Origin: Fennellomyces sp. T-0311
Lineage: Eukaryota > Mucoromycota > Mucoromycetes > Mucorales > Lichtheimiaceae
NCBI GenBank assembly: GCA_025266875.1
Contig: JALLLT010000058.1
Span: forward strand, 1 to 64,000
DNA length: 64,000 bases
Reading direction: 5' to 3'
Shown: in pieces, positions 5,218 to 52,600 of the stretch
Layout of the letters: every line of letters begins with the position of its first letter
Position numbering within the stretch: position 1 is the first letter of the stretch
The notes under the pieces: generated by a model
Databases searched by the model: none
What the model was told of the DNA's origin: nothing
The model's input: the letters and a program-made list of their open reading frames with translations, nothing else
Position numbers and translations under genes: made by a program

Positions 5218-7346
5218 TAGGGCTCTAAACGGGCCATGCCCGACGGGCATCGGGCCAGTTCAGCCGGGCCACACCTGTGGCCCGTGGCCCGCCCGATGGA
5301 ATCTACAATGTAAACGATCTTAATGCAGCAATGACTAATATAGAAGTGAAATGGGGTTCTGCCTTGTGTTATCGTATATAAGGTTTGGGCAAAAGTCATC
5401 TTTATTGTATTAGATCATGTAATCGCTATCTTGCACACACTTTTTTGAAACAGCAGAACTTCTGCAAGCAACAAAGGAAGACCAAGAAGTACAAAAAGCC
5501 AAAGCGACATAGTGAGACAAACCAGCAATTCGACATCGCAAATGGCGTAGGAATGCATCCTGCTTTGCATTTTTTCAGCAACGTTTTTTCTCTCGATGCC
5601 CGTCAAATGGAATTCAGGTCGACCATATTGCTTCAGAACGAATTTTTAATCACCACATACAGTACTACTCGACCATATTTATTTTCCATACAACTGAATT
5701 TTACCATATGACTCAGCTTTGTTTTACCGGCACTCCATTCCATTTCGACATTGTGCATCCCAATCAAAAAAGGGTGGCTGCGTACATACTGTAATGGTGC
5801 ATACACAGCCACCCTTATTGTTTTTCAAATAGGTACACTTTTTCAAGCGCACTACTCAAGATGAAGAAGGATGCTTGTTGTAGCTCTTTTTTCTTTATCC
5901 AATGGTTTTCTGCGAAGCACCACCTTTAGTAAGCCAAAGGTTGGTTTTTTTCGGTAATAAAGCATCTGTATGGTCGAGGCACTTTTCAATCACTATTGTT
6001 GTCCTTTTTTTCGTGTAATAAAGCTATCATTATACTGATCCACTTTATCATCACGTTTTACTTCTGCTTACACAATGCCAGCTGGAAATTATCTTTGCTT
6101 GAACACATAGCCCTTTCACACTAATACCGATCCTATCCAAGTTCTAAGACATTTGCGGATTAGCGTGCTGCAGGCAGTTTGAATAGTGCTATGGTGCAAC
6201 TGATCTTAAACCGACAAAATTTTTAAAGTGTATCTAGTCTGTCAAAAATAAAAGTTTAGAAAAACTAAGCGATAACTTTGATGTATTATCATGTATAGAT
6301 GAAAAGTTATGGCTTACATTATGGATAACTGTCGATGTAAAGAAGTAGTTAGCACTTGAAGTTGGTGACTTGAGAGAACTTTTGGCAGGGAAAAGGGTTA
6401 AAATGTTACAATTCAAACGCAGCGCCGCCATTTGTGTAACAAAAATGGTAGATACGTTACACAAAATCTCTGGATAGCCCAATGATACATCTGCTTTTCA
6501 TTTTCCATTCACTGTCACTACAGTAAAGAGAAAAGGCTGATGGGCCTGACTTCAAAGCTCAAAAGTCTGCTCTTCTGAAACTAGTGGTAAAATCTCATCA
6601 TAAGTTAAAGCTCTATCCCAAAAATTAATTATGAAATGAATTCCATAACGCGTTTCTGGGGAATAGCAAAAAGAGAAGCCCGCATGCAGTATAATTGTTC
6701 CTTTTAAGTTGCTATAACGCCACCTGCCATCAAATCCTAGACTCAGTCCTATTGCTAATGATTTGGTGCTTTGTGTTGAAGGCTTGGGCATACATTAAGT
6801 TCTATGTAGAACGAACAATAGTTGGTCCTGAGCATGATTAGTTCTTGGAAAAATTACATATTTCACCTCAGGGGTGGCCACGATGAATTGTCTAACCATA
6901 TATAGATGCGGGATTTCAAATCGAAAATTTGTTACAATTTGAAATTTTGTTGGTTTAAGATCGGTTGCACCATAATTGACGTAGCAGCCTTTCATTGTCG
7001 CAACTTGGCCCATCAACACCAATCATTGTGTAACCGGATCATTGTAGAAACTGCTCAACCTTTTGACAAATCTTTCCATATTAAAGATGTATACTTAGTT
7101 GATTAATCTTTATTTGCAATACACAGTTTTGATAGAATCAAATTACATATATAACAAGGGCCATTTAGATGGACGTTTCATCTAAGAAAATACATATGCT
7201 TCACATTCGGGCACTCGGTCGGGCCGCTATATAGGACCGTGCCCGTTCGGGCACCCACCTTCATACAGCTTTCCTGGCCCGATGCCCGAAAATGCCGGGC
7301 CAAAACGGGCGGTCCACGGGCCTGCCCGCCCGTATTTAGAGCCCTA
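5218..7346. mobile_element. hAT-like element with 12-bp TIRs
   Basis: The left end reads TAGGGCTCTAAACGGGCC (5218-5235) and the right end is its inverse, TTTAGAGCCCTA (7335-7346), giving a perfect 12-bp terminal inverted repeat. Both ends carry dense GGGC/GCCC subterminal words (5230-5298 and 7208-7335), a layout typical of hAT elements. The flanking octamers (GTTGCAGT and CATGATAG) do not match, so either the target duplication has decayed or the ends come from different copies. The interior (about 2 kb) holds no hAT transposase. A decayed reading near 6250-6480 (plus strand, two stops) and minus-strand frames at 6552-6791 and 6795-7022 may be relics of other proteins. Family assignment rests on the ends alone. 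Confidence 0.45.
5770..5816. repeat. Short hairpin, 14 of 15 pairs
   Basis: The left arm AAGGGTGGCTGCGTA (5770-5784) pairs with the right arm TACACAGCCACCCTT (5802-5816), with a 17-nt loop and a single mismatch. It lies inside the hAT-like element; function unknown. Confidence 0.7.
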
Positions 7347-10191: not shown

Positions 10192-13100
10192 CAATCCGAA
10201 AATTTTTCGTCATTATCGTGAATGCTCCCCATCTGCACCTGCCATCTGCGACGGTTTTGTCCCAAGTTGGGATGTCTTTCGTTCAATCACTGTTAGAGTA
10301 CCCAGAAAAGAACACTCGCATATATTCATACGGAACAATCGAGATTGTGAGATCTGACGATCACCGTGTAAGACATAAACCAATTACCCCTCATGTTGAT
10401 ACAGCACCGTGACACACTGGAACTATTGGATATCGCATTGCGCTTCCACCAACGAGGAAGATCAATTAACCGGCCAAGCCATCGACATATTATCACACCT
10501 CAAGATATTGGAAATATCTTACAACAATGTAGATTTTCTGATCGCGCCGTTACGGCATAGTCCGCCAGCTTGAAAGTTTGACATTGTCAACACGTGATTC
10601 AGAAAGCAAAAAGCTGATTTAAAGCCATCCTACAACTGATCAATTAACGCGGGTTATCGATCCACAACGATTTCATGCGAACCAAAATGATATAATCGAA
10701 TTTCTATCCCCCATTGCAGAACAAGGATGACAATTGGAAGCGATTTATATATATATAAATACTCAACAGTCATCCAAGACTGAAAATGTGACATAAGTAA
10801 CATTTGAACACTTCGACTTGTGATTACATGACTAAATAGAAAAAGCAAACGAATGTTTTGGGGCGGGAATGTATGTGGTACCAGAAAGTAATCAAAAAGC
10901 AGGCCTCGTTGCACAAAGTCTAATAAAAACAAACAATTCTATATCATGTGAAGATATAATGTTTTTGCATGGTGCGGTTGTTTTTTTTGTCATAACATAG
11001 GATGGAAATCAAAGGGTGCAGAACTGTTCACGGCAGTACGTGACAATGCCTTACAAAGTCCTTCGGCAAAGTGAGCACATTTGTCCTCTTTTTATCGAGC
11101 AAGCCGTGCTTTGACAATGCCTTTGCAGATGAAAGCAGGGAAACGTATAGGTATCTTGAATGCTGGCATTGGCCGCAATGAGACTAAGAAAGCTCGTACG
11201 CCTCGATTTCTTGCTTTACGCCACTGTCGTATAACATCCAGCCAAGCACAAACGTTATCCGACCACTTCAAGGGTTACACAGCTGATTAAATACCAACAG
11301 TTGGACGTCCAAACTTTGTCCATAGGTACGCAGTGTTGTTCTCCAACGAGAAGCGGCCGGTCATATCAGCCCGTCCGACAGCATAGCAAATACTTTGAGA
11401 AGTTTGCTACGCCTGTGTCATGATTCAGCCTTGTATTTCGATAAAACTGTATGTCGCTCAACCAGGGATGATGCGATACAACAGAAGCATGGCAACGCCT
11501 TCGCCGTCTATCCGCTTCAACCAAGATGTTCAGGACATGCTTTTGGAGCAGTATCAGTCACGCCTATTCTGTATGTCGAATATGCTTCCATCAGCTTACT
11601 TTGTAGTATGAACCCCTCTGTACTAGTAAAATCCTTGTCCGGTCGTTATGACGTGGCAACTGAAATGGTACTCTGACTGTCACCCGGCGCAGCTACACGG
11701 TCAAGTTGAACGACGAACGTCGGGCATATGTTGGATTCCCATGGTCAATTGTCGATCGCGTGTCAGTTAGATCGAGATTGCGACATGATAGGAACGAAAG
11801 AGTGTCGTCATAAATCGCCATCACTTGAATGACAAAGAGTGGCGGGAATGTTGACGTGGTGTAGCGGAGGGAAAGAGATTCGTGTCAAGCTGAAATAGTC
11901 TATCCATTCTATTGCCAGACTGCCGGTCTCCAGAGCTGGTGCATTTGAAAATGAGAGAAACCATTATCGTGGAAGGGTGCACACGTTGTTGGTGGATGGT
12001 GGTACTATAAGCTCACCGTATACTATATGGCATGCTCGATATGTATTTGCGAAACAGTTTTTCGGGTACTGATTGGCGTGTGCGCAGGGATAATCGGTTC
12101 AGCCGGCGTGGACAAAGAGAGGTCTGTGCACTGTGCGTCGTCAAGCGGACTTGTCGGTATGGCAGCAGTGTGAGTCAGTAACGAAGACCAGCCAAAAAAA
12201 AGCTACCTTTCAAGCCATACAGTCCTTTATTGCTCTTGCACACCGTTTGCTGCAGCCATGACTTGTTACTGTAAAACGTCATAGCCTGGGTGACTGTTGC
12301 TACATGTGAAAAAAAGGGGGGACTGCTCGCTTTCAAAAAGGTATAAAAGGAGGTCAGAATCGGCAGCTTTTTTCTTTCTTTTCACAATGATCCCAAGAGA
12401 AAGTTATGCTCGAGGGAAACCACCAGGGTCTCCAGTAGCGAGACGGCACAGACAGATGAAGGGATAAACTTCCCCTTGCTCTTTGTTTGGTTGTGCTTCA
12501 TTACTGTTGAGATTCAAAAATACCGAAGCTGCTTTGGTGGCTGCTGGTCTTCCTTTGGACGGCTTGTCTTCTTTGGAGACTTGATCAACCTCCTTGGAGA
12601 CTTGCTGCTCTTCTGGGGACTGTAGCCTTCCTTGTGGAAGAAGCTGCTTCGGGGGATTATGGGAATTGGTGGCCCACGTATCCAATCAAACAAGAGAACG
12701 AAAAAAAACTTAATGGTCTTCTGAAGGCCTTTTAATCGGCTTGTTTTCAAGTGACCCGTTCCAGTTGGTGACTGTCGCTCAGGGTCTCGATTCAATAAAG
12801 TCATTGCTTTTTTCCCATGTGCTCTGCGCGCTTACTACTTGATCGACGCGTTGTTTTTGCCACTTGCTGTTTACATTAGTGCCATTTTTCCCTTAATAAA
12901 GTCCAATCCGTGTCCGTTCCAGCCTTGCGCAATCAAGTCCAATTTTCCTTTTTTGTGTGTCGACTGTTTCTTTCGCTTGCGGTCATGACAAGCGAATCGT
13001 GGTGTTCGGTTTATGATGCTTTTCGAGTGAGAACTCGTTTACTATGTGAAGCTCGCTCGTAATGAGCACATTGGGAGGCCTGGTTAAAGCCACTTCCTCT

Positions 13101-14919
13101 GCTGTTCTCCTTGTTTGATCACCCCCGGTAACAGAATATCAGCCACTCTTGCCAAACCATATGACACGAATCTTCGCTCGTTTTGACTGGTATAGACCGA
13201 AGCGAGTAGAGTGATGGCTCGATGAAGACATGCACGGTTGTTCGTTGGAACAACAAACATCGGCGTATCCTGTGCCAAGAATGACGTTCGAACAGGTTAT
13301 ACGTACCACGGAGCGCGTGTCACCCTAATCCCCCTTCAAAAAAAAAGAGCTCTGGACCAGACGATAGAACAATCAGCCTCAAACAAAACGCCCAGTTTCA
13401 CTTTGCCTCGGCACCGTTACCACATTAATCAATGTAGTAGAACATGACTGATACTTTTAATAGGAACTGCATGTTTGAAAGCTTTCTATTAATTTGAGCT
13501 TTTTGCGGAATGATTGCTGGCACTGTGTTATGCTTGGGTTACATAGATCGGCGTACTACTAGCGAACTGGCGTAAGCTGCGCGTGGGTTATGACTTGGGT
13601 ATCCACCTTTTTCAATTGAAGCGCTTGGAAAGAGAGGAACGTGATCTACCGGACGATGATGAACGTTCATAGTAGAACGTATGGTGGTGGTTGTCGTTAC
13701 CAATGCAGCTTCACGCGTTCAGCAAACAGATCCAGCTAAATCTCATTGGATGCTCTTGAGTCCTTGCACGTGCCAAGCAAAGGCTACACCACACAACGCT
13801 GTACTTTTCCGATACGCGCCATTCGGGTATAAAAGTGCTATAAAGGGTGTGTTGGTGGAAATGGGAATCAACACCAAGTTGATAAAGATACGTAAGCTCT
13901 GAGCAGATACGCTTTTGATCTGACTCAATCCCCAGAACTTTGCGCAAATGAAAACTCACAGTTGTGTTATTTTAGCAATGAAGTTGCAAACAATTGTATA
14001 TGCATATATACAAGCACTCAAACTGCAGCAGTTTGATCTCGGTCTCCTTCTCGGATGTTTGACTTTTATGCCTTGGATACCCTGATCCTTTCCGCCGTTC
14101 ACATATTGTATGGTCAATAGATTGTCAGAGCTTTCTTTGGAGCTTGGTATTCGATAAAGCAACTGTCACCCGATGGTTTACCAGCAAGTGTACAGAAATT
14201 CAATACCCATCTTTTGCCACTTGAAACCACGAAAACTGTTGAAGAGATGGCGACAGCTTTATATACAAGCGCAAAGAGCTACCAGCATCTTTATATCAAC
14301 CATCAGAATTTTTTTTTCCTCTTCGAATAATGCGGGTCTACATGTGATTTCATCGATGACACCATCTTGCATGTGCTTCCAAATATTCGGACGCTGCGTG
14401 AAGTAGATATTGAATGTTCCGATATGGTCACGAAACAGAGCGTTCAATGACTCCAACGAAACTCACACATCGATTCCTTATCAGATGGGAAGTTAGAACG
14501 CGCTGCCAACACAGGTATCCTTTGGCTATCGCATAAGACTAGAGTCTATATAGATTTAGCCTTAGCAGAACCGCTTGGATACCTTAGATAGTAATGTATA
14601 TAAAGTCTTTTATCAAGAGTTCATGTAAAATAAAACTGGGTAAAGCATATACCACCCCTCATGCGTATCGCGCATGATAAGCGCTTTTTTTCGCTTATTG
14701 CTTTCCGGAAAGTACTGTAATTATTGGATGAGTCGCTGACAACCACACCAATAGTAAAAACATACAGTATCTTGAAGTATTGCTTATATTGAATGGGTGG
14801 TGCTATGACAGAGGAAAACAAGTCTACTTTAACATGTTGATCAGAATGCAAAACATCTGTTTGTGAGTGTGTATAGTAAATGGACGGGAATCGAGGGAAG
14901 TAGAGTGGGAGGCGTACAA
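10192..14919. other. Large gene-poor region
   Basis: No family recognised. Weak open frames at 11081-11676, 12404-12804, 13084-13447, 13681-13959 and 14259-14456 lack introns, motifs or conserved context. A TATA-like GGTATAAAAGG at about 12340 followed by a CT-rich tract precedes an ATG at 12388, but the frame closes after about 22 codons. Confidence 0.45.
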
Positions 14920-43864: not shown

Positions 43865-45015
43865 CTATGCAGAGAAGTATCGAAGGAACGGCGCTAAAAA
43901 CATTCTTCCTGTTACAACCAAAGTGGTCAAAGTACATGCGATGCCGACCACTCGTTGCCAACCCACAAGCTCCTGCTTATATCCAGTTTTCTCGCGGACA
44001 ACTACTTCTGCAAGAACGATCACTCCATGAAGCGTGAAGAAAATCACATTCTCCAACGAAACTTGACGAAAGAGGCACACGATAATCAACTCATGATATA
44101 GACCACTGATGAAATACACAAGCAAACCACGTAGCATCCTACTACGACGCGCTGCGGCCCTATCACCATCCGCATCCTTCTTGCTATCCGCGCTTTTCTG
44201 GGAGAAAATCAACATATGCATGAGATTTCGGATGGGCGCATTCCAGCGACGGCTTTTCGGAAAGAGGTGATCTAATTAGTATAGAACATATCGTTGTCGC
44301 GTTAGAAATACCTCCAGAACTCTTTCGGGCTGCTGGCAAACATGGGGGAGTGATTCAAGTCGGACGTCGGGACACCGAGAGCGACCTGTTGGAGCCCCAT
44401 GAAGACATCCGCGACGCCAAGAAAACAATACGCCTTTGCTCCAAACAGTGCAGTCAGACCCAAACTTGTCGGATGTAGCCATGGGAGGGTCAACATGGAC
44501 GTCATCTTGTCGGGGAATAGTGGATCGACGCATAGCTTCATGACTGCCAACTTGCATGCACCTCGAACCATTCGCTTGACACCTTTGATACGCGCGTTCC
44601 TTCTCTCGTGGTCTGTCAGTTCGAGAGTCTCGATCTTTCGTTCTGCCAGCTGCATTCGCTGTTCATCCGACGCCTCCAGGGTCAAATATTGGGAAGAGTT
44701 GAGCCACTCTTGGTACGAGTACTTTTCTACCGGTATGGCAGCACTGTAAGCCGCATAAAACCATGGAAACGCCAAGTAGAACAAGTTGGCTGGGGTACTT
44801 GCGGATGCAATCACTAGAGGAATGGCAGTGTGGACGATCGCCAGGCCCGTTCGCAATTGTGCCTTGCTCAGCGGAAGCTTCTTCTCATTTCGTAACACAG
44901 CATAGTCAGCGGATATCACGGCCCAGTATAATGTCACTAGTACAGGCGCCTGCACGATAATAGGTGGTGGAAGCGTAATGTAGACCATGGGCCGCAATGA
45001 CCCTGGCCATGGCAT
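43865..45015 (-). CDS. Wax-synthase-like membrane O-acyltransferase
   Basis: Two exons (44312-45015, 43865-44252) give 363 residues. The acceptor CGAAAAG was chosen because it creates the family motif FWSRRWN, where nearer AGs break the frame. Other features are SPKEFW just before the junction, GLYHELII with the presumed active-site His, and LHGVIV. Several membrane segments are present (PIIVQAPVLVTLYWAVI, GLAIVHTAIPLVIAS, LFYLAFPWFYAAYSA, MLRGLLVYFISG, VVGIACTLTTLVVTG). The family (wax synthase/MBOAT-like) transfers acyl chains to alcohols or sterols, or to polyketides in fungal gene clusters, in the ER. No biosynthetic cluster surrounds it. The start may instead be Met-10 (44988). Confidence 0.8.
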
Positions 45016-45939
45016 TGTGAAATGTGTACTAGGGTCAGGTCGCTAAGCCCATCCAAACAATCAATTTTGAGTCGGCTTAACGGTGAGCTTAAAAAGGCAG
45101 ATCGTCGCCACCATGGTTGAAAAATCTCTAGAAGTGTCAAACTGATACCAGCTGATACTCTTGTCCGTTGATGCTCGACACTGCAGGTGCGTAATCGTAC
45201 TACTGGCCTCAAAAATTGATCGGCCAAACCAGTGGGACGAGCGAACAGGAGAGATAGTTGAGCTGCTCGATAGGAAGCGTTACACAACGTCTCTTGGTAG
45301 CTAGATTCGCAAGCAATGTCTCATAAACACTCTATATCTCTCGTCATATGTAGCCTGGAGCAAAAAAATACAATACCAGTGGAGATCAAGTGCCCAAAAG
45401 GTGTCCATGAGAGCCGCACAATTGACGATGCTTTTAGGTCGGTGGGCGAATCATGATGGGGGTTTTGATCTGGCTTCATCCCCGCACTAGCGATAGTGCC
45501 TGTACCATATTGTACCATCGCTTGGTATCTACTACTTTGCCACAAGTCTCGATACCAAGCTGTTGACAGAATTGAAGGAGATGATATCGTACAGCATGCG
45601 TACCAGTGAGTTAGCTTTGCACGAAAAGATTCCGCATTGCATGCTGCCTCGCGAGCAAAAGTCTTCATGACTCGCTACCAAAAATATCCGCCAACGAATA
45701 ATACGTTCGTAAGTAAATAGTCAAACTATATATCAACGTGAAGTTACTAATATGGCCTGGCGATATTACTGAAATGCGACAAATCTTGGCTGCTTCACAC
45801 CAAATAAAAATTTGCAAGCACATACATATGATATTTAATGAGTTTGGAATAGCAAAGCTTAATGAACATGATGCACAACAAAGAGAAAAGGATATACTGA
45901 CAAAAATACAGGCGTTCAGCTAACTAAACTATTTTTTCT
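45016..45939. other. Intergenic region between acyltransferase promoter and Fanzor 3' side
   Basis: No supported gene. A 61-codon plus-strand open frame (45738-45923) of unknown nature lies near the presumed outer end of the Fanzor locus. Confidence 0.4.
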
Positions 45940-46060
45940 CCAGCTTCAAGCTGGTTGGGGCAGCGAACGAGAACACGAGCTACACCGAAGGGATTTCCAT
46001 GTTGGGATTGATTTGATATGGGTCTTGTGGATTTCTCCTGAACGCCGGTAGCGGTGTGTT
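45930..46060 (-). ncRNA. Predicted guide-RNA (omega/fRNA) scaffold region of the Fanzor
   Basis: In TnpB and Fanzor loci the guide RNA overlaps the 3' end of the nuclease gene and its downstream flank. Here a perfect hairpin, CCAGCTTCAAGCTGG (45940-45954; 7-bp stem, 1-nt centre), lies 25 nt beyond the Fanzor stop on the minus strand and is followed in that direction by an A-rich stretch. The boundaries given are a guess; only the hairpin is seen directly. Confidence 0.3.
45940..45954. repeat. Perfect 15-nt palindromic hairpin after the Fanzor stop
   Basis: CCAGCTT-C-AAGCTGG, seven base pairs around one central base. Confidence 0.9.
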
Positions 46061-49000
46061 GTCCTTTGAAATAGCGATAGACAGCCCTCTAATTGCGATG
46101 TTAAAGGCCGCGGCGTCATCTCTTCCGTAGGTACTGTTTCGATGGCAAGGGCAACGGATGTTCGTACACCTCAGTGCGCCATTTACAGTCTTCAGTTCGC
46201 CTTCTCGACGGTACTTATGCAGCTTCATTGAGCTCAAGCATACGGGACATGTTTTACTTGAGTAGTCCTCCGAGATGGTCACCATAATATCTTCATCTGG
46301 GGCATCTATTCCTTGTCCCAGCGCGGTCAGATTCGCTCTCCTGTGGTCTTTGATGCGCGAGTTTATTGGCCGGTACGAGCCTAGCAACCATAGCAAAATG
46401 TTAGCAGACAGAGTATTACTGGTGCCATTTGTTTACCATTGAACGTAATTGTGGCTCCTTCTCGCCAAGCACTAGTCAACTTGCGATGGTATGTGACACC
46501 TCGTATTTCACGTGTTCTTTTTTCTTTTGAACGTTTCTTAGTATCATCAATTTGTCTCGCTCTCCTACGACTCCTGTTGGCAGAATGGGCGTTATCAAGA
46601 CGTGCGGTGTGTAGGTGGCGGGCTGTATATCGTTTCCCTTTTGTAGGTCGCAGCGGGTTGGTTGTCGTACTTCCAGATGCATGGCTAGCAACTTTTACAT
46701 AGGCATCTTGGAGTGTGAGTGTTGAAATTGTGGCCGCTGTCACCAGCCCTGGGTCAACGCCCCTAATGTTCATAGGCGAGCCGTTGTGTAATGCATGTTT
46801 GATCCGCTCTTTAGCAGCTGCCTAAGGGTTCCACAGATGCCTTTCAGTTTATCTGAGAAAGCCTCGCACGTATTTTCTTACCATTTCTTTCGAAACTTCT
46901 TGAACTTTGTCAGTAAGCCCTCGAGCAGCACGGTTGGTAACATATAAATTGGCTCGCGCTTTCTTAAGCTCTTTCTCCTGTTCCCTGATCGTCTGCTCCA
47001 GATCCGCAACTGCCACTCGTGCAGACTTCAGCCTTCCATACAACCTGTAGTCCCATACTGGCGCCGGCTTTTGTTGCCGTAATAGTCGGTGCTCGTGCCC
47101 AAGATCCGCTCGCTCCCTTTCCGCCTTTGGCAGGTTTCGGCGCATGGCTGTCAGTTCACCTGAAAGCTTATTGATATTTGCTTCCAGTTTCTGTGCCTGG
47201 TCGTCAAGTTGTTTTAAAATCTTCCTGCGCTTGGGGACCTGGATGGGCTTGGCTTTCACAGTTGCCTTCCTTTTCTTGGAACAGGAGGCCTTTTTGGCTT
47301 TGCTTTTCTTGGAACCTTTGGGCTTCTTGGGACTCTTCGCCTTGACCTTTCCTTTGTGGTCTTTGGTTTTACCCTTAGATCCTTTAGTCTTTCTGCGGTC
47401 TTTGCCCTTGCACTTGGTTCCAAGAACGCGAACCGTGCGATAGTTGACAAAGGTGAACCGGTAGCGATTTGATAGCCCTTGTTTACCGAGCACAGCATTG
47501 ATTTTCGGCAAGTTGAAAAATGCACCCATTGTTGCGCTCCGGCCTTCTCCACGGTATGTCGCACGCTTACTGGTCATCATCTTCCTGTTGTCGACCGGTA
47601 TGTCGTGGGTTTTTGAGAATAGTGTATAGACAACGTCTGGTGAGAGGTGGATGGAATGGTCCGTGCCGTCGACTTTCGGTGATACCGCCCACTCATTCTG
47701 CTGCGGGACGATCAAGTGGATAATTCGGTTGGTAATGATAGCAAGTGGTAAGCATTGGTGAACACAAAGGTCATCCATGGCGCCATCAGCCTGCGGTGTA
47801 TAGAATGGTCGGATCCCATTAGCGATGTCTGCAGCCACCTGACACTCTTTATCCGTTAAGGTACACCCACGGAAGGTCGCATTCTTGATATCCTTGGCAG
47901 TCGTTGTTTTAGAATTGCTATTGAGTATACCCGTGATGATCGCGACAAGAGCACGAATTCCTCTTGCAGAAGTTTCCTTTTCATCGGGCGACTGCTCTTT
48001 TCCTTCTGCAGGTGTCTCTTCCTCTTCGTTGCCATCAGACAGATCCAAGGGGTGAAGTTCCTCCGGATCTGGAACCACGTCTTGTTCGCCGCTTGTGCGC
48101 GATACCGCATTGGCATTAGTTGCTCTTTTGCGTCTCTACATAGTCGAAATTTAGAGAAGATTGCATTGAGACGTTTCAAACGAAATTCAAGTACCTGCTC
48201 CAGGCTGCGCTCAAACTTCCTCAAGAGGTTATCGGTGATATGTGTTGGCCGTTGGCGGACAATGGCCCTGGTTAGATCGGAAAGTAACCACACGCATTCG
48301 GCACCTCTTGCTCTTGATTTACCCTTGGCGGAATCCTTTTTCTTCTGTTTCTTCTCGGCAGCTTTCTTTGCCAGGAGCTCAAGATAGCGACGAACTCGCT
48401 TTGGCGCAAGATTCAAGCGTAACAGAGCCGTCAACGTGACTCTGAGATCACGTCTGTGTCTCTTTCGAGTCCAAAGGTTTTTGCACGCTGTACTGAATTC
48501 ACGTAACGCATTGGTCATGCTTGGTAGACTTTTTGATTTTCTTGCGAATCATGGCAAATTCTTTCCGTTCAGCCCCTTCCCGAATGCTATTACCTACACA
48601 GCCTGATAAAAGGTGGAAATGAGATTAAAAAGCCGTGGATACGGGTATGGCGATGCTATACCTGACAATAGATTGGAAAAATGAGCATACGAATATATTC
48701 CAGCTTTGTCCAGAGCAGAGAGGTCGTTGGGGATAGCCGCCACAGGGACAGTGGTTTCCTTGTTATCGAAATCGAACTGAGGGGCTACGTTCTTGATGTC
48801 AAATTTGAGCTTCTCAACTTGAACGCCACAAATTTTCGCCGCTGACCCATCTGCGATTAGCTCGGTGAGTTTGGCAACCGCGACGCTCAGACCATCCATG
48901 CATTCTGCGACACGTTTCTGTTCATGAAGGACCGTGGTAAGAAATTCGTCATGGTTCACTTCTGGACGAAGAATCGATCGTAATGTAAATGTGACCGTGC

Positions 49001-50245
49001 GGCTCTCTTTGCTACGTTTGCTCTTTACATCCTTCGCGCCAGAACCACCATTCTCGCTTGAGCTGTCGTCGTCGTCGCTCGAATCGTCCTCATCGCTTGA
49101 ACCCTCCTCGTTACTGGGGTCGCTGTCATCACCGGCGGCTGTATCATCTATGTCGCAGCCATCGTTGGCTCCACCGAGGAACCGTGTTGCCATACACTTC
49201 CAATTTTCATCCGTGGAGGTGTCAAGTGTCTTTCGGACGCCTTCGATATAGGAGCTTCCTTGACTACGGAAGTAACCGAGCCTGTCATAGTCTTTGTAGC
49301 CCTTCAACCGGTCCGAAAACCACTCTTTAGATAGATCAAGATGTTTCGGTGCCTTGCCGCAATTGTATCGCTCATTGAATTGAAGAATTTTGGAAGGGCA
49401 CGAGCGTTGTTGTGCCTTTCTTCATAGTTGTTGAGATTCATTAAAGCATCGGTCTTGTCTTCAGAGCTTTCCATAAGATCGATAATGGTGCTTTTGAAAT
49501 GCTTGACAACACCGGCCTCGTACACATCAATGATCTCTTCACATTTGATGCCTGTCTGAGCCCGCGGGGTTCGTGAAGAGCTGGCCGCCATTGGCGCTGT
49601 TTGTCTTCCCTTCACTCTTCTTGTCGCTCGTTCCGCGCGTGTTGTCGAAATGGTTTTCGATCGTTTCTTACATGCAGCTGGTTGATTGCTTGAAGCTTTT
49701 GGCTTTTGTTTCCGAACTTTGGGAGGCTATAACGCGATCTGATTAGCATCAGGTTAATATATTAACTTCTACTGACGACTTACCTTGTAATCGATAACAT
49801 CATTTAATTGAAACCACTCAGGCGGAGCACCAAGGAAGCTGTCGATGTGGTGGAGCATCGCGATTGTGGCACTGCTGCCATCCGGGTTGATTACGCGTGG
49901 TGCACGTCTTGACGAGAAGTAATAAACCCGCCAGTCATGCAAGTACGCAAGCGCCACAAGGAGGGACAGACCACGGACCTTGACCTTCTGACTACTCTGG
50001 GTCATAATCGCTACATCGTGTTCCTTTTTGCTGTTCAGGGTTTGTGCAAGAGTTGTCGATGTTTGGGTTGCCTCGAGACCGCTTCTCTTCAAAACCTTCA
50101 TGACTTTGGTGAGGTTCTCTCTCCCCGGAATACGCTCTGCCAAATGCCTGGTTGCGTCCTCAAGCCGTTCTGCAGAAAGTTGTATGGTGTCGATTTGAAG
50201 ATTGCTGGCAGAAGTGAAGCGAGTTGCACCGTAGTGAACATCCAT
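45980..50245 (-). CDS. Fanzor (eukaryotic TnpB-like RNA-guided nuclease) with long N-terminal extension
   Basis: Predicted exons, 5' to 3': 49784-50245; 49726 to about 49440; about 49430-48662; 48503-48602; 48195-48441; 46882-48135; 46437-46821; 45980-46380. All junctions are in frame except one near 49350-49440. The last two exons hold the nuclease: RuvC-I Asp in RGVDPGLV (46753-46755), Glu in ISEDYSSKTCPVC (46268-46270), a zinc ribbon (CPVC ... RCTNIRC) and RuvC-III Asp in YGRDDAAAFNI (46118-46120). The glutamate just before the ribbon matches the relocated catalytic Glu reported for Fanzors, as I recall. Before RuvC-I come a coiled coil (about 46900-47230) and a Lys-rich linker (about 47250-47440); further upstream is an acidic Ser/Asp stretch (about 49060-49140). 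The first two exons might be a separate gene. It would cut DNA guided by an RNA from its 3' flank; activity is unproven. Confidence 0.82.
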
Positions 50246-51614
50246 TATGGTGAATGGAGTGGAAAAAAGAGAGAGGAAGATGGCAAGCTGTGCTTTCCCA
50301 CCCTCTTGTTTTTTTCGCTGCAACTCTGACACAACTTCCTGGCGTCCATTCTCAAATCCAACCCTGCAATGTTTACTTCGGCTGTCAACCGATGGGATCG
50401 TTACACAGTGCGTACCATTGTCTTCATGCAGCTATGTACCCTTTGCTTGCTTCCAGAATGACGACTGCCTTTCCATATATCACACACCACCTCTGCTCTT
50501 TTCACATCAGTGCTACCCCATGATGTCATGTATACGCAACAGCATCCCGTACCCCACATAACAGTTTACCACCGCTTTCCATTGATTGATTGAAACTTTT
50601 CTATCAGCAGTCCCTATCATTTCCTTTTCTATGCAAGAAAAATCATAACTCCTACTGCAGCTAGGCAGTAGCTCATGCGGTGCAGAACGATAGAGAATAG
50701 CGACATGCATGAAACGAGAAACTCACTAGCTCATACGAAGACTCCATTCAACGATTTCCTCATCTGGCTTGAACTCAGTGATACAGATTCATCGACTCCA
50801 CCTAGCCAGCACTTTCGAGAACGGACCCCCACGCTCTCTTTCTTTCCTCTTGTTCACCAGATTCACCAACTTTTCACTCTTAATTTTAACCCTCTGATGC
50901 ATGAGTTTTTTTCTCTACTCCCATCGAGATCGGGCAGAGCGGCAATACGAATAGCGATGCGCTTCAAGTGATATTACTTTTGTAAAGCGATAATAAAATA
51001 TTGTTTGATCCAGACAGTTTGTAAACCGTACACGATGGTTACCAGACGATGCACTGCTCTCCCAGCTGATCCCGCACCTACCTCGCAGCCGCACTAGCTG
51101 CTATGACCAACTTCATAAAACCGATCTATGGCAGTGCCTGCACCACAGACCGGCCCTGACAATCTTAGTCATGCAATAAACTAAAGGGAAAAAAGGAATA
51201 TGTCAAACGCTATGTGTTGCTTTTTCCTCTGACAAAACTTATGACAGGAAGGTCATCTTCATTAGCATTCTAATCGTGTACCAATGAATTTAATGACGCT
51301 AATGGTTCTAATGGTGCAGAAACGTAAAAATTTGTGCTCTTGTTTATATTAATCTTCCTATTACATTGCTTTTTTACGGTAATCTTTTTCAACATTCCTC
51401 ATTTCGCATTGGCCGTTTTTTTATATCCACTGAAACAGCGTAGCATTTCCTAAATTTATTCTTCTTCCCAAATCATAAATGCTACATACACCCCTTCGTT
51501 TCATTAGAGATCATAACCTTTTTTTTGCCTCTATTTTGTTAGCATGGCAACCAAAAGCGTGACAGACACCCAGCCAGCCGTATCGACCAATCCCTAAAAG
51601 CTTTTCAAACTCCG

Positions 51615-51640
51615 TTAGAACGCCGAATTAGAACGCCGAA
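51615..51640. repeat. Tandem duplication of TTAGAACGCCGAA
   Basis: Two perfect 13-bp copies, flanked by ACTCC on the left (51609-51613) and its inverse GGAGT on the right (51644-51648). Confidence 0.85.
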
Positions 51641-52600
51641 AAAGGAGTAATACTGTAATGGCAATCGAGAGATCTAAATCAAAGAGCGGTTAATACCACC
51701 AGGATATTAAAGTGGCGGTATGAGAGGTAGATAAAGCAGGAATTTATATAGCAGTATAAGAGGGGACTTCAGTGACTTTCCATATTAGCGTAATTACGTA
51801 GTAATTGCACTTCTTTAATAGCTCTATAAAAAACTGTATGTTGTAATTGCTCGGTACCTTTTTGGAAGACATAGAGTCTTCTGCGCAAAAACAAATCGAA
51901 TACGCACCCAACTTACCTTCTTTTATGTTTATAATCTTTAGAAGCTCACTCAACTCTCCTAATAAAGAGAAGTACTAAAGTAATGCTTCCCGTTAATCAC
52001 CTGTGCTTCGCCTTTTGAAAACAAAAGGAAGCTATAGCATGGCGAATCGTACAGGGAGACAGATGTCGTTACAGACGAATCCAGTGTCATGGTTTGATTT
52101 CCATAGTAAACTAGATTATTGACGTGTCCAAGTGCTTTAATGTGAGTATGCACTCCTATAGTATAGATTGTAAATAGTCTTGGACGTATTGTGTATGCAT
52201 TGTGGTCGTTAGCATTGAGTGTGGTGCACATTGTGGTACAGCTTCATGGCATTCAAATTGTTCCTGGTGTCCCCTTCTTTTCAAAATCCATTAGGGAGCT
52301 CAATCAGCATGGTTGTTGTTTTTTGCCTGTTTTGCTTGATAACCGTGTTGTACCATTTTTGATTCTAGTGGACACTGTGTCCACCTCAACTCTTGTAGTA
52401 GTAAATATGTTATAACACTGTAAACACCCTTATACGTTAAGGAAAGCGTACCTTTCTACATTTATCAACTTGTTGTTGAAGGTACGTGTACCATTTACAA
52501 TGAGAGTAGTGCCGTTTATAGTGGAAGTTCTTTCCTCATGCTGTGTAAGTAACGGATTTACGGGTGAAAGCATCAACGCCATCCCGTGTATGATTAGTGA

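Follow-up and report, generated by a model that had tools for sequence, protein, structure and literature searches.

A predicted Fanzor1 of about double the usual size in a Fennellomyces element that is probably carried by Helitrons

Why eukaryotic transposons keep Fanzors is an open question. In the Fanzor model, RNA from the element's 3' end uses the flank as its guide and directs the protein to cleave a matching site that adjoins a 5' motif (PMC10432273). A 64,000-nucleotide stretch of the fungus Fennellomyces sp. T-0311 (Lichtheimiaceae, Mucorales; contig JALLLT010000058.1, positions 1 to 64,000; hereafter the window) contains a gene that a sequence-only reading had described as a Fanzor with complete catalytic residues, at least seven introns and an unusually long N-terminal part. 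That part was suggested to be a transposon partner domain, a localisation module or a fused host gene. What does this gene encode, what moves it, and what is its N-terminal part? On the evidence, the locus is fairly likely to be a degraded Fanzor1 element that is non-autonomous and probably carried by a Helitron.

The catalytic Asp, Glu and Asp and the four ribbon cysteines are all present on the minus strand of the window (Table 1). The published Fanzor fingerprint combines a RuvC-I DPG with a Glu that lies six residues ahead of the ribbon (PMC10711439). DPG is present in the family of the window copy (family A), in a second family of the same genome (family B), in Circinella and in Zychaea, and the Glu lies six residues ahead of the first ribbon CX2C in families A and B and in Zychaea. 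A four-cysteine ribbon followed by RD (CX2C...CX4C...RD) is found in families A and B and in Circinella. A profile built from four family members was searched against Protein Data Bank chains. Its best match was SpuFz1 of Spizellomyces punctatus (PDB 8gkh; E = 0.0037), across the Glu, the ribbon and the last Asp. The next match was lamin (E = 0.44), so the Fanzor match is beyond chance. The alignment with SpuFz1 reads Glu, CX2C ... RREGK ... CTNP.C ... NRD, and the distances from the RuvC-I Asp to the Glu and to the last Asp are similar (143 and 193 residues here, 158 and 223 in SpuFz1; PMC10432273). Fingerprint and profile thus bear out the Fanzor identity that had been read from the letters.

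Circinella umbellata protein P0001 has Lys in place of the RuvC-II Glu, with an Asp beside it, so not all family members need be nucleases; P0001 is possibly a binding-only Fanzor. The Zychaea model has no second ribbon Cys pair. The published search pattern (PMC10711439) specifies a ribbon spacing and a second CXXC that are not found here, but SpuFz1 likewise has CX4C. In Pfam the TNB domain was matched below the cut-off. The AlphaFold2 model of Zychaea P0003, made from four sequences, has a mean predicted local distance difference test score (pLDDT) of 44, with about 30–50 in the catalytic part, and so does not speak for a RuvC fold. Confident regions of the model are limited to the coiled coil (pLDDT 75–89), which agrees with the coiled coil first proposed, and, less so, an N-terminal helical piece. 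Sequence comparison indicates that the family is a form of Fanzor1 of about double the usual size.

The coding sequence of the window copy is explained by six exons and five GT-AG introns of 56–60 bases, and the intron positions are identical in two sister copies (contigs C108 and C123). A gene model with seven or more introns was therefore rejected, contrary to the initial description. The sister genes (loci L009 on C108 and L010 on C123), about 96% identical to the window copy, are intact and encode 1,333 and 1,324 amino acids (aa), also in six exons with five introns. Compared with both sisters, the window copy is missing a single base of exon 2 and 32 bases of exon 3. Because these deletions shift the frame, it is unable to encode the whole protein; "complete" holds for its catalytic residues and fails for the gene. 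The originally delimited locus (45980..50245) covers the coding part of an element that is larger and repeated.

At least 77 protein matches to the last exon of the window copy were found in this genome, merging to 68 loci. Family B accounts for 16 rows among the matches listed, 44–48% identical across nearly the whole last exon. Its copy on C139 is intact and encodes 1,357 aa, its copy on C79 is broken, and both have the same layout as family A. The RuvC parts of the two families are 43% identical. Circinella P0001 (1,415 aa) is a full-length relative with the same layout, 33% identical over 98%. Further protein searches turned up no additional long member, and in a scan of a viral collection with the family 67 stretches fitted a pattern and none was confirmed. 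The public Fennellomyces protein P0004 is 100% identical to residues 841–1324 of the C123 protein and therefore holds 484 of its 1,324 residues.

All copies might be relics of a dead lineage whose protein has no present function, as the frameshifted window copy and the many related copies that are internally deleted or broken would allow. We consider this improbable, since at least three long genes are intact and the ratio of nonsynonymous to synonymous change (dN/dS) between C108 and C123 has an overall value of 0.35, with 0.33 for exon 1 and 0.12 for RuvC. Moreover, 12 family B copies are 94–100% identical to C139 throughout exon 1; two of these copies carry a stop. Two regions of the C108/C123 comparison count against constraint throughout the protein: dN/dS is 0.65 for residues 155–330, and it is undefined for residues 701–895, which contain no silent change.

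The broken copies include a recurrent type. In 20 of the 30 loci read, a common internal deletion leaves about 76 aa of exon 1 fused to the ribbon, 166 aa in all. A repressor family of this kind would have a parallel in the KP derivatives of the P element, and some of the 20 have an open frame. Silent changes in the ribbon part are slightly above neutral (67/195, 0.34, against an expected 0.26), but those in the N part equal the neutral expectation (62/237, 0.26), and neither part is free of stops and frame breaks. A repressor role is hardly credible on these counts. The deleted copies drift nearly neutrally and are read as passengers, with no repressor family.

The case for a long N-terminal part is stronger than first claimed, because family B and the Circinella protein have the same part. 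The RuvC-I Asp is residue 1086 in the C123 protein and residue 383 in SpuFz1 (PMC10432273), so that 1,085 residues precede it here and 382 in SpuFz1. About 700 residues are therefore extra, all before RuvC-I. Most Fanzor1 proteins have 600–700 aa (PMC11423790) and some up to about 800 aa (PMC10711439); at 1,324–1,415 aa, the intact copies and the Circinella protein are outside the usual Fanzor1 length, which is a typical size and not a defining residue. In the C123 protein an exon-1 domain (residues 1–154) is followed by a linker, a helical part, an acidic stretch (richest 50 residues starting at 346), a middle part, a Lys/Arg-rich linker (50% Lys plus Arg in the best 60 residues), a coiled coil, and RuvC with the ribbon. 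The acidic Ser/Asp stretch and the Lys-rich linker were thus correctly recognised at the outset. Comparison of family A to family B or Circinella gave 44–54% identity for residues 401–600 and 701–895 of the middle part and 21–26% for residues 601–700. Among A, B and Circinella the exon-1 domain is 41–43% identical, versus 35–43% for RuvC. These values indicate that the N-terminal part is real and conserved.

Could this part be a captured host gene fused to a Fanzor? No Pfam family accounts for it: all matches of N-terminal pieces were below the cut-off, differed between homologues and explained nothing of the part. Nor is such a part mentioned in the Fanzor literature consulted, which would also suit a fusion. 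The distribution of the exon-1 domain argues otherwise. In this genome 39 loci of the domain were found. At 36 of them a Fanzor last exon follows downstream in the same orientation, for which the probability by chance is about 0.006 per locus, and the other three lie inside the starts of family A or B elements. All 39 therefore lie in Fanzor elements, and a free copy was not found in this genome, other genomes not having been searched. Because the domain occurs here solely inside Fanzor elements, we regard a host-gene fusion as very unlikely. Any fusion would have to be old, since the domain is present in two families and Circinella at about the identity of RuvC.

AlphaFold2 modelling of exon 1 from two sequences gave a pLDDT of 43.5. 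Binding, whether to a partner or to nucleic acid, is the most likely role of the N-terminal part, and the basic linker makes a localisation module possible. PpFz1 of Parasitella parasitica is likewise a Mucorales Fanzor1 with an extra domain, but there about 100 aa are inserted in RuvC, whereas about 700 aa precede RuvC-I here (PMC11423790). The FRI domain of PpFz1 binds cyclophilin (PMC11423790). By analogy, a conserved part that doubles the usual size of Fanzor1 and has no Pfam match is a lead for partner proteins. Among the papers listed by literature searches on Fanzor, fungi, Helitron and Mucorales, no title or abstract opening names a double-sized form; supplements may list longer Fanzors.

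Other copies had been proposed as a means to define the element, and its ends were indeed fixed from junctions shared among them. The gene is thus carried by a repeated eukaryotic transposon with fixed ends that is not of the IS607 kind. Its 5' ends read CC-TTTTT-AGGCGTTCTAAC, with variants, and its 3' ends read GTTAGCTGAACGCCTGTATTTTT in family A and GTATAGAACGTCTGATTTTT in family B. The first 80 bases are about 95% identical between the two families, far above protein identity. Inverted arms (GAACGCC/GGCGTTC) lie near the element ends, and T-runs are present at both ends. Target duplication was assessed with 14 of 16 flank pairs (C128 and B_C111 were dropped because the end pattern is missing), and none was found: 44 letters are common to the flank pairs, the mean of shuffled pairs is 43.0, and 213 of 500 shuffles are as high.

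The elements sit in C-rich/T-rich targets, as the 5' flanks show. Thirty were collected, the thirtieth being a duplicate, and T-run placements were settled by eye. In the 29 distinct flanks the base before the T-run is always C (29/29), the next base is C in 25/29 and the third in 18/29. Empty sites were represented by 12 junction-spanning rows among the 40 matches listed, for 2 of 14 insertions, and five of the 12 were read. In four copies of a single repeat, CACC precedes TTTCT- or TTTTCT-like stretches; a T-rich stretch was therefore present before insertion. Because the empty site reads CCTTTT and then the flank, CCTTTT is the predicted target motif; that of SpuFz1 is CATA (PMC10432273). 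Two points tell against this motif. The fifth row, from another site, has TTTT without CC, and the C before the T-run may belong to either the target or the element.

A hairpin near the 3' end occupies a similar place in the predicted folds of families A and B. It agrees with the guide RNA idea but proves nothing. The 3' end of the derivatives is not clearly better conserved than the rest, a point against the overall reading; stronger conservation seemed likely by comparison with C123 and failed in pairwise windows. In many family A copies, exon 6 contains GGCGTTCAG (near 5796 of L010 and near 46045 of the window), which is complementary to the element 3' end. This pairing could extend a guide RNA scaffold and is absent from the family B fold. 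A long stem in which exon 6 of family A pairs with the 3' end was not retained, as paired changes do not keep it and it did not appear in the family B fold.

The 5' end also offers a candidate mover. Its pattern occurs at 33 places in the genome, and the reversed pattern at 6. Three of the places have no Fanzor match among those listed and are not known starts of family A or B elements (C172:46058, C120:49424 and C153:25869). As DNA, the C172 end is identical over its first 30 bases (E = 1e-7) and the C120 end is 78% identical over 97 bases (E = 4e-16). On C172 the 5' end is followed on the same strand by DUF6570 at 47055 (1.0 kilobases (kb) in) and Helitron_like_N at 48080 (2.0 kb in). On C120, with the 5' end at 49443 and also on the same strand, DUF6570 lies at 47923 (1.5 kb in) and Helitron_like_N at 47170 (2.3 kb in). 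Together they represent 2 of the 11 DUF6570 places and 2 of the 44 Helitron_like_N rows in the genome. The Helitron gene on C172 has stops, and on C120 the frame is open for 632 aa. Of the C120 interior, 1.6 kb was read (L076); an open reading frame (ORF) in it was rejected as the Helitron start because it lies outside the element. Two elements with Helitron genes thus begin with the same 5' end as the Fanzor elements, which are therefore probably Helitron passengers; a Helitron mover is likely from the 5' end. The earlier suggestion that the N-terminal part is a transposon partner domain found no backing, as no transposase family was matched and a separate Helitron is implicated as mover by the 5' end.

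Some results speak against a Helitron. The third place, C153:25869, has two mismatches to the 5' pattern and neither a DUF6570 nor a Helitron_like_N match; it may be a chance pattern match. The family A 3' end, at three or fewer mismatches, was not found near C172 or C120 (the family B end was not searched). In Helitron2 the 3' inverted arm lies upstream of a terminal hairpin, 20–30 bp from the end (Bao and Jurka, PMC3627910), whereas here it stands on the other side of the hairpin, nearer the end.

The arms and T-runs raise a different prospect, namely that the element moves itself and that the N-terminal part is a divergent Crypton-like transposase or recombinase using the T-run as crossover core between the inverted arms. 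In a circle the arms GAACGCC/GGCGTTC would face each other around the T-run, and the element has T-runs at both ends and no target duplication. Yet the N-terminal part has no recombinase match in Pfam, the sole match to the exact circle-junction pattern is an ordinary 5' end, and two of the three Fanzor-less 5' ends run into Helitron genes. None of the 8 PF00589 places in the genome is near these ends, a search that did not extend to more distant recombinase families. Self-mobility is accordingly unlikely.

A Helitron carrier has a precedent. The CRe-1/2/3 elements of Chlamydomonas (Helitron2) also have Fanzor1 in a non-autonomous Helitron, insertion at T-runs and internally deleted copies (PMC3627910). 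Complete CRe-1/2/3 copies have no target duplication and 5'-truncated copies have target duplications (PMC3627910). They differ from the present elements, whose host is fungal and whose inverted arms are placed differently (PMC3627910). The Mucorales elements ROr-4, PBl-3 and MCi-4 (Rhizopus, Phycomyces and Mucor) resemble ours in carrying Fanzor1 without an encoded transposase, but unlike ours they have MuDR-like inverted repeats and 9-bp target duplications (PMC3627910). A MuDR-like mover, known for Mucorales Fanzors, is not supported because no 9-bp target duplication was seen.

If a Helitron is the mover, its Rep/helicase would move the element in trans. The 3' end would yield a guide RNA whose guide is the flank adjoining the element, and the Fanzor would cut the empty site, where the guide sequence comes after CCTTTT. 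Repair of the cut might then copy the element back, favouring its retention or copying. RNA-guided cutting of empty sites beside CCTTTT would thus be the likely activity of the intact copies. The N-terminal part and the basic coiled-coil insert may add a host- or element-specific contact for nuclear or chromatin targeting, oligomerisation or Helitron coupling. In a bolder and rather doubtful version, these proteins would form a clade of giant Fanzors whose N-terminal half, old and dedicated, makes a physical link between RNA-guided cutting and either rolling-circle Helitron transposition or host chromatin. A single protein would then locate the CCTTTT target and also help to deliver a Helitron to it or to retain one there. 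One fungus provides intact copies whose sites are known, together with empty sites, the predicted CCTTTT motif, two diverged families with a common 5' end and a candidate mover; with these in hand, homing is directly testable.

Table 1. Features of the Fanzor element in the window
Feature	Position	Strand	Remark
Whole Fanzor element including the T-run at both ends, frameshifted	45902..51643	-	flank/element junctions common to sister copies
5' junction CCTTTTT: T-run and flank CC, candidate target-adjacent motif	51639..51645	-	
Exon 1: start codon and conserved N-terminal domain, 154 aa	49784..50245	-	
Exon 2: helical stretch, acidic Ser/Asp/Glu stretch, beginning of conserved middle part; one-base deletion relative to sisters	48662..49726	-	
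Exon 3: conserved middle part; 32-base deletion relative to sisters	48195..48602	-	
Exon 4: conserved middle part, Lys-rich linker, coiled coil	46882..48135	-	
Exon 5: RuvC-I (DPG) and the part after it	46437..46821	-	
RuvC-I Asp codon (in GVDPG)	46753..46755	-	
Exon 6: Glu, zinc ribbon, RuvC-III Asp, stop	45980..46380	-	
RuvC-II Glu codon, six residues ahead of the first ribbon Cys (Fanzor position)	46268..46270	-	
Zinc ribbon CX2C...CX4C	46151..46249	-	Cys codons 46249-46247, 46240-46238, 46168-46166, 46153-46151
RuvC-III Asp codon	46118..46120	-	
Hairpin CCAGCTTGAAGCTGG of the 3' untranslated region; may form part of a guide RNA scaffold	45940..45954	-	predicted structure
3' terminus GTTAGCTGAACGCCTGTATTTTT, inverted to the 5'-end GGCGTTC	45902..45924	-	

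Further observations concern related copies. More Fanzor lineages, 32–37% identical to the last exon, were seen at C116:365787, C128:1035782, C35:886817, C172:118502 and C136:203973; two of these, on C128 and C136, are also preceded by a match to the exon-1 domain. The public model BJV82DRAFT_674575 (P0002, 937 aa, contig C135, L039) begins with about 645 residues that have no BLAST match to C123, followed by the Fanzor linker, coiled coil and RuvC-I; it is either a wrong model or a host-Fanzor chimera. In the family B copy L060 (C13, 5' end near 842704) a second CCTTTTTAG stands just outside the 5' end, perhaps from insertion into or beside an older end. Loci L068 and L069 (C124 and C114) have a common 5' flank, and L030 and L033 (two copies on C121) a common 3' flank, so part of the copy number is probably due to segmental duplication.

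In the window itself, an Rfam scan gave no match at gathering scores. A weak MBOAT acyltransferase match adjoins the element (43865–44275; E = 0.0027, below the cut-off), and the insertion lies outside it. Positions 12084–13613 hold a repeat of 1.5 kb in which no ORF reaches 120 aa; it is 86.5% identical to positions 7333–8888 of L008, near a Fanzor copy on C103.

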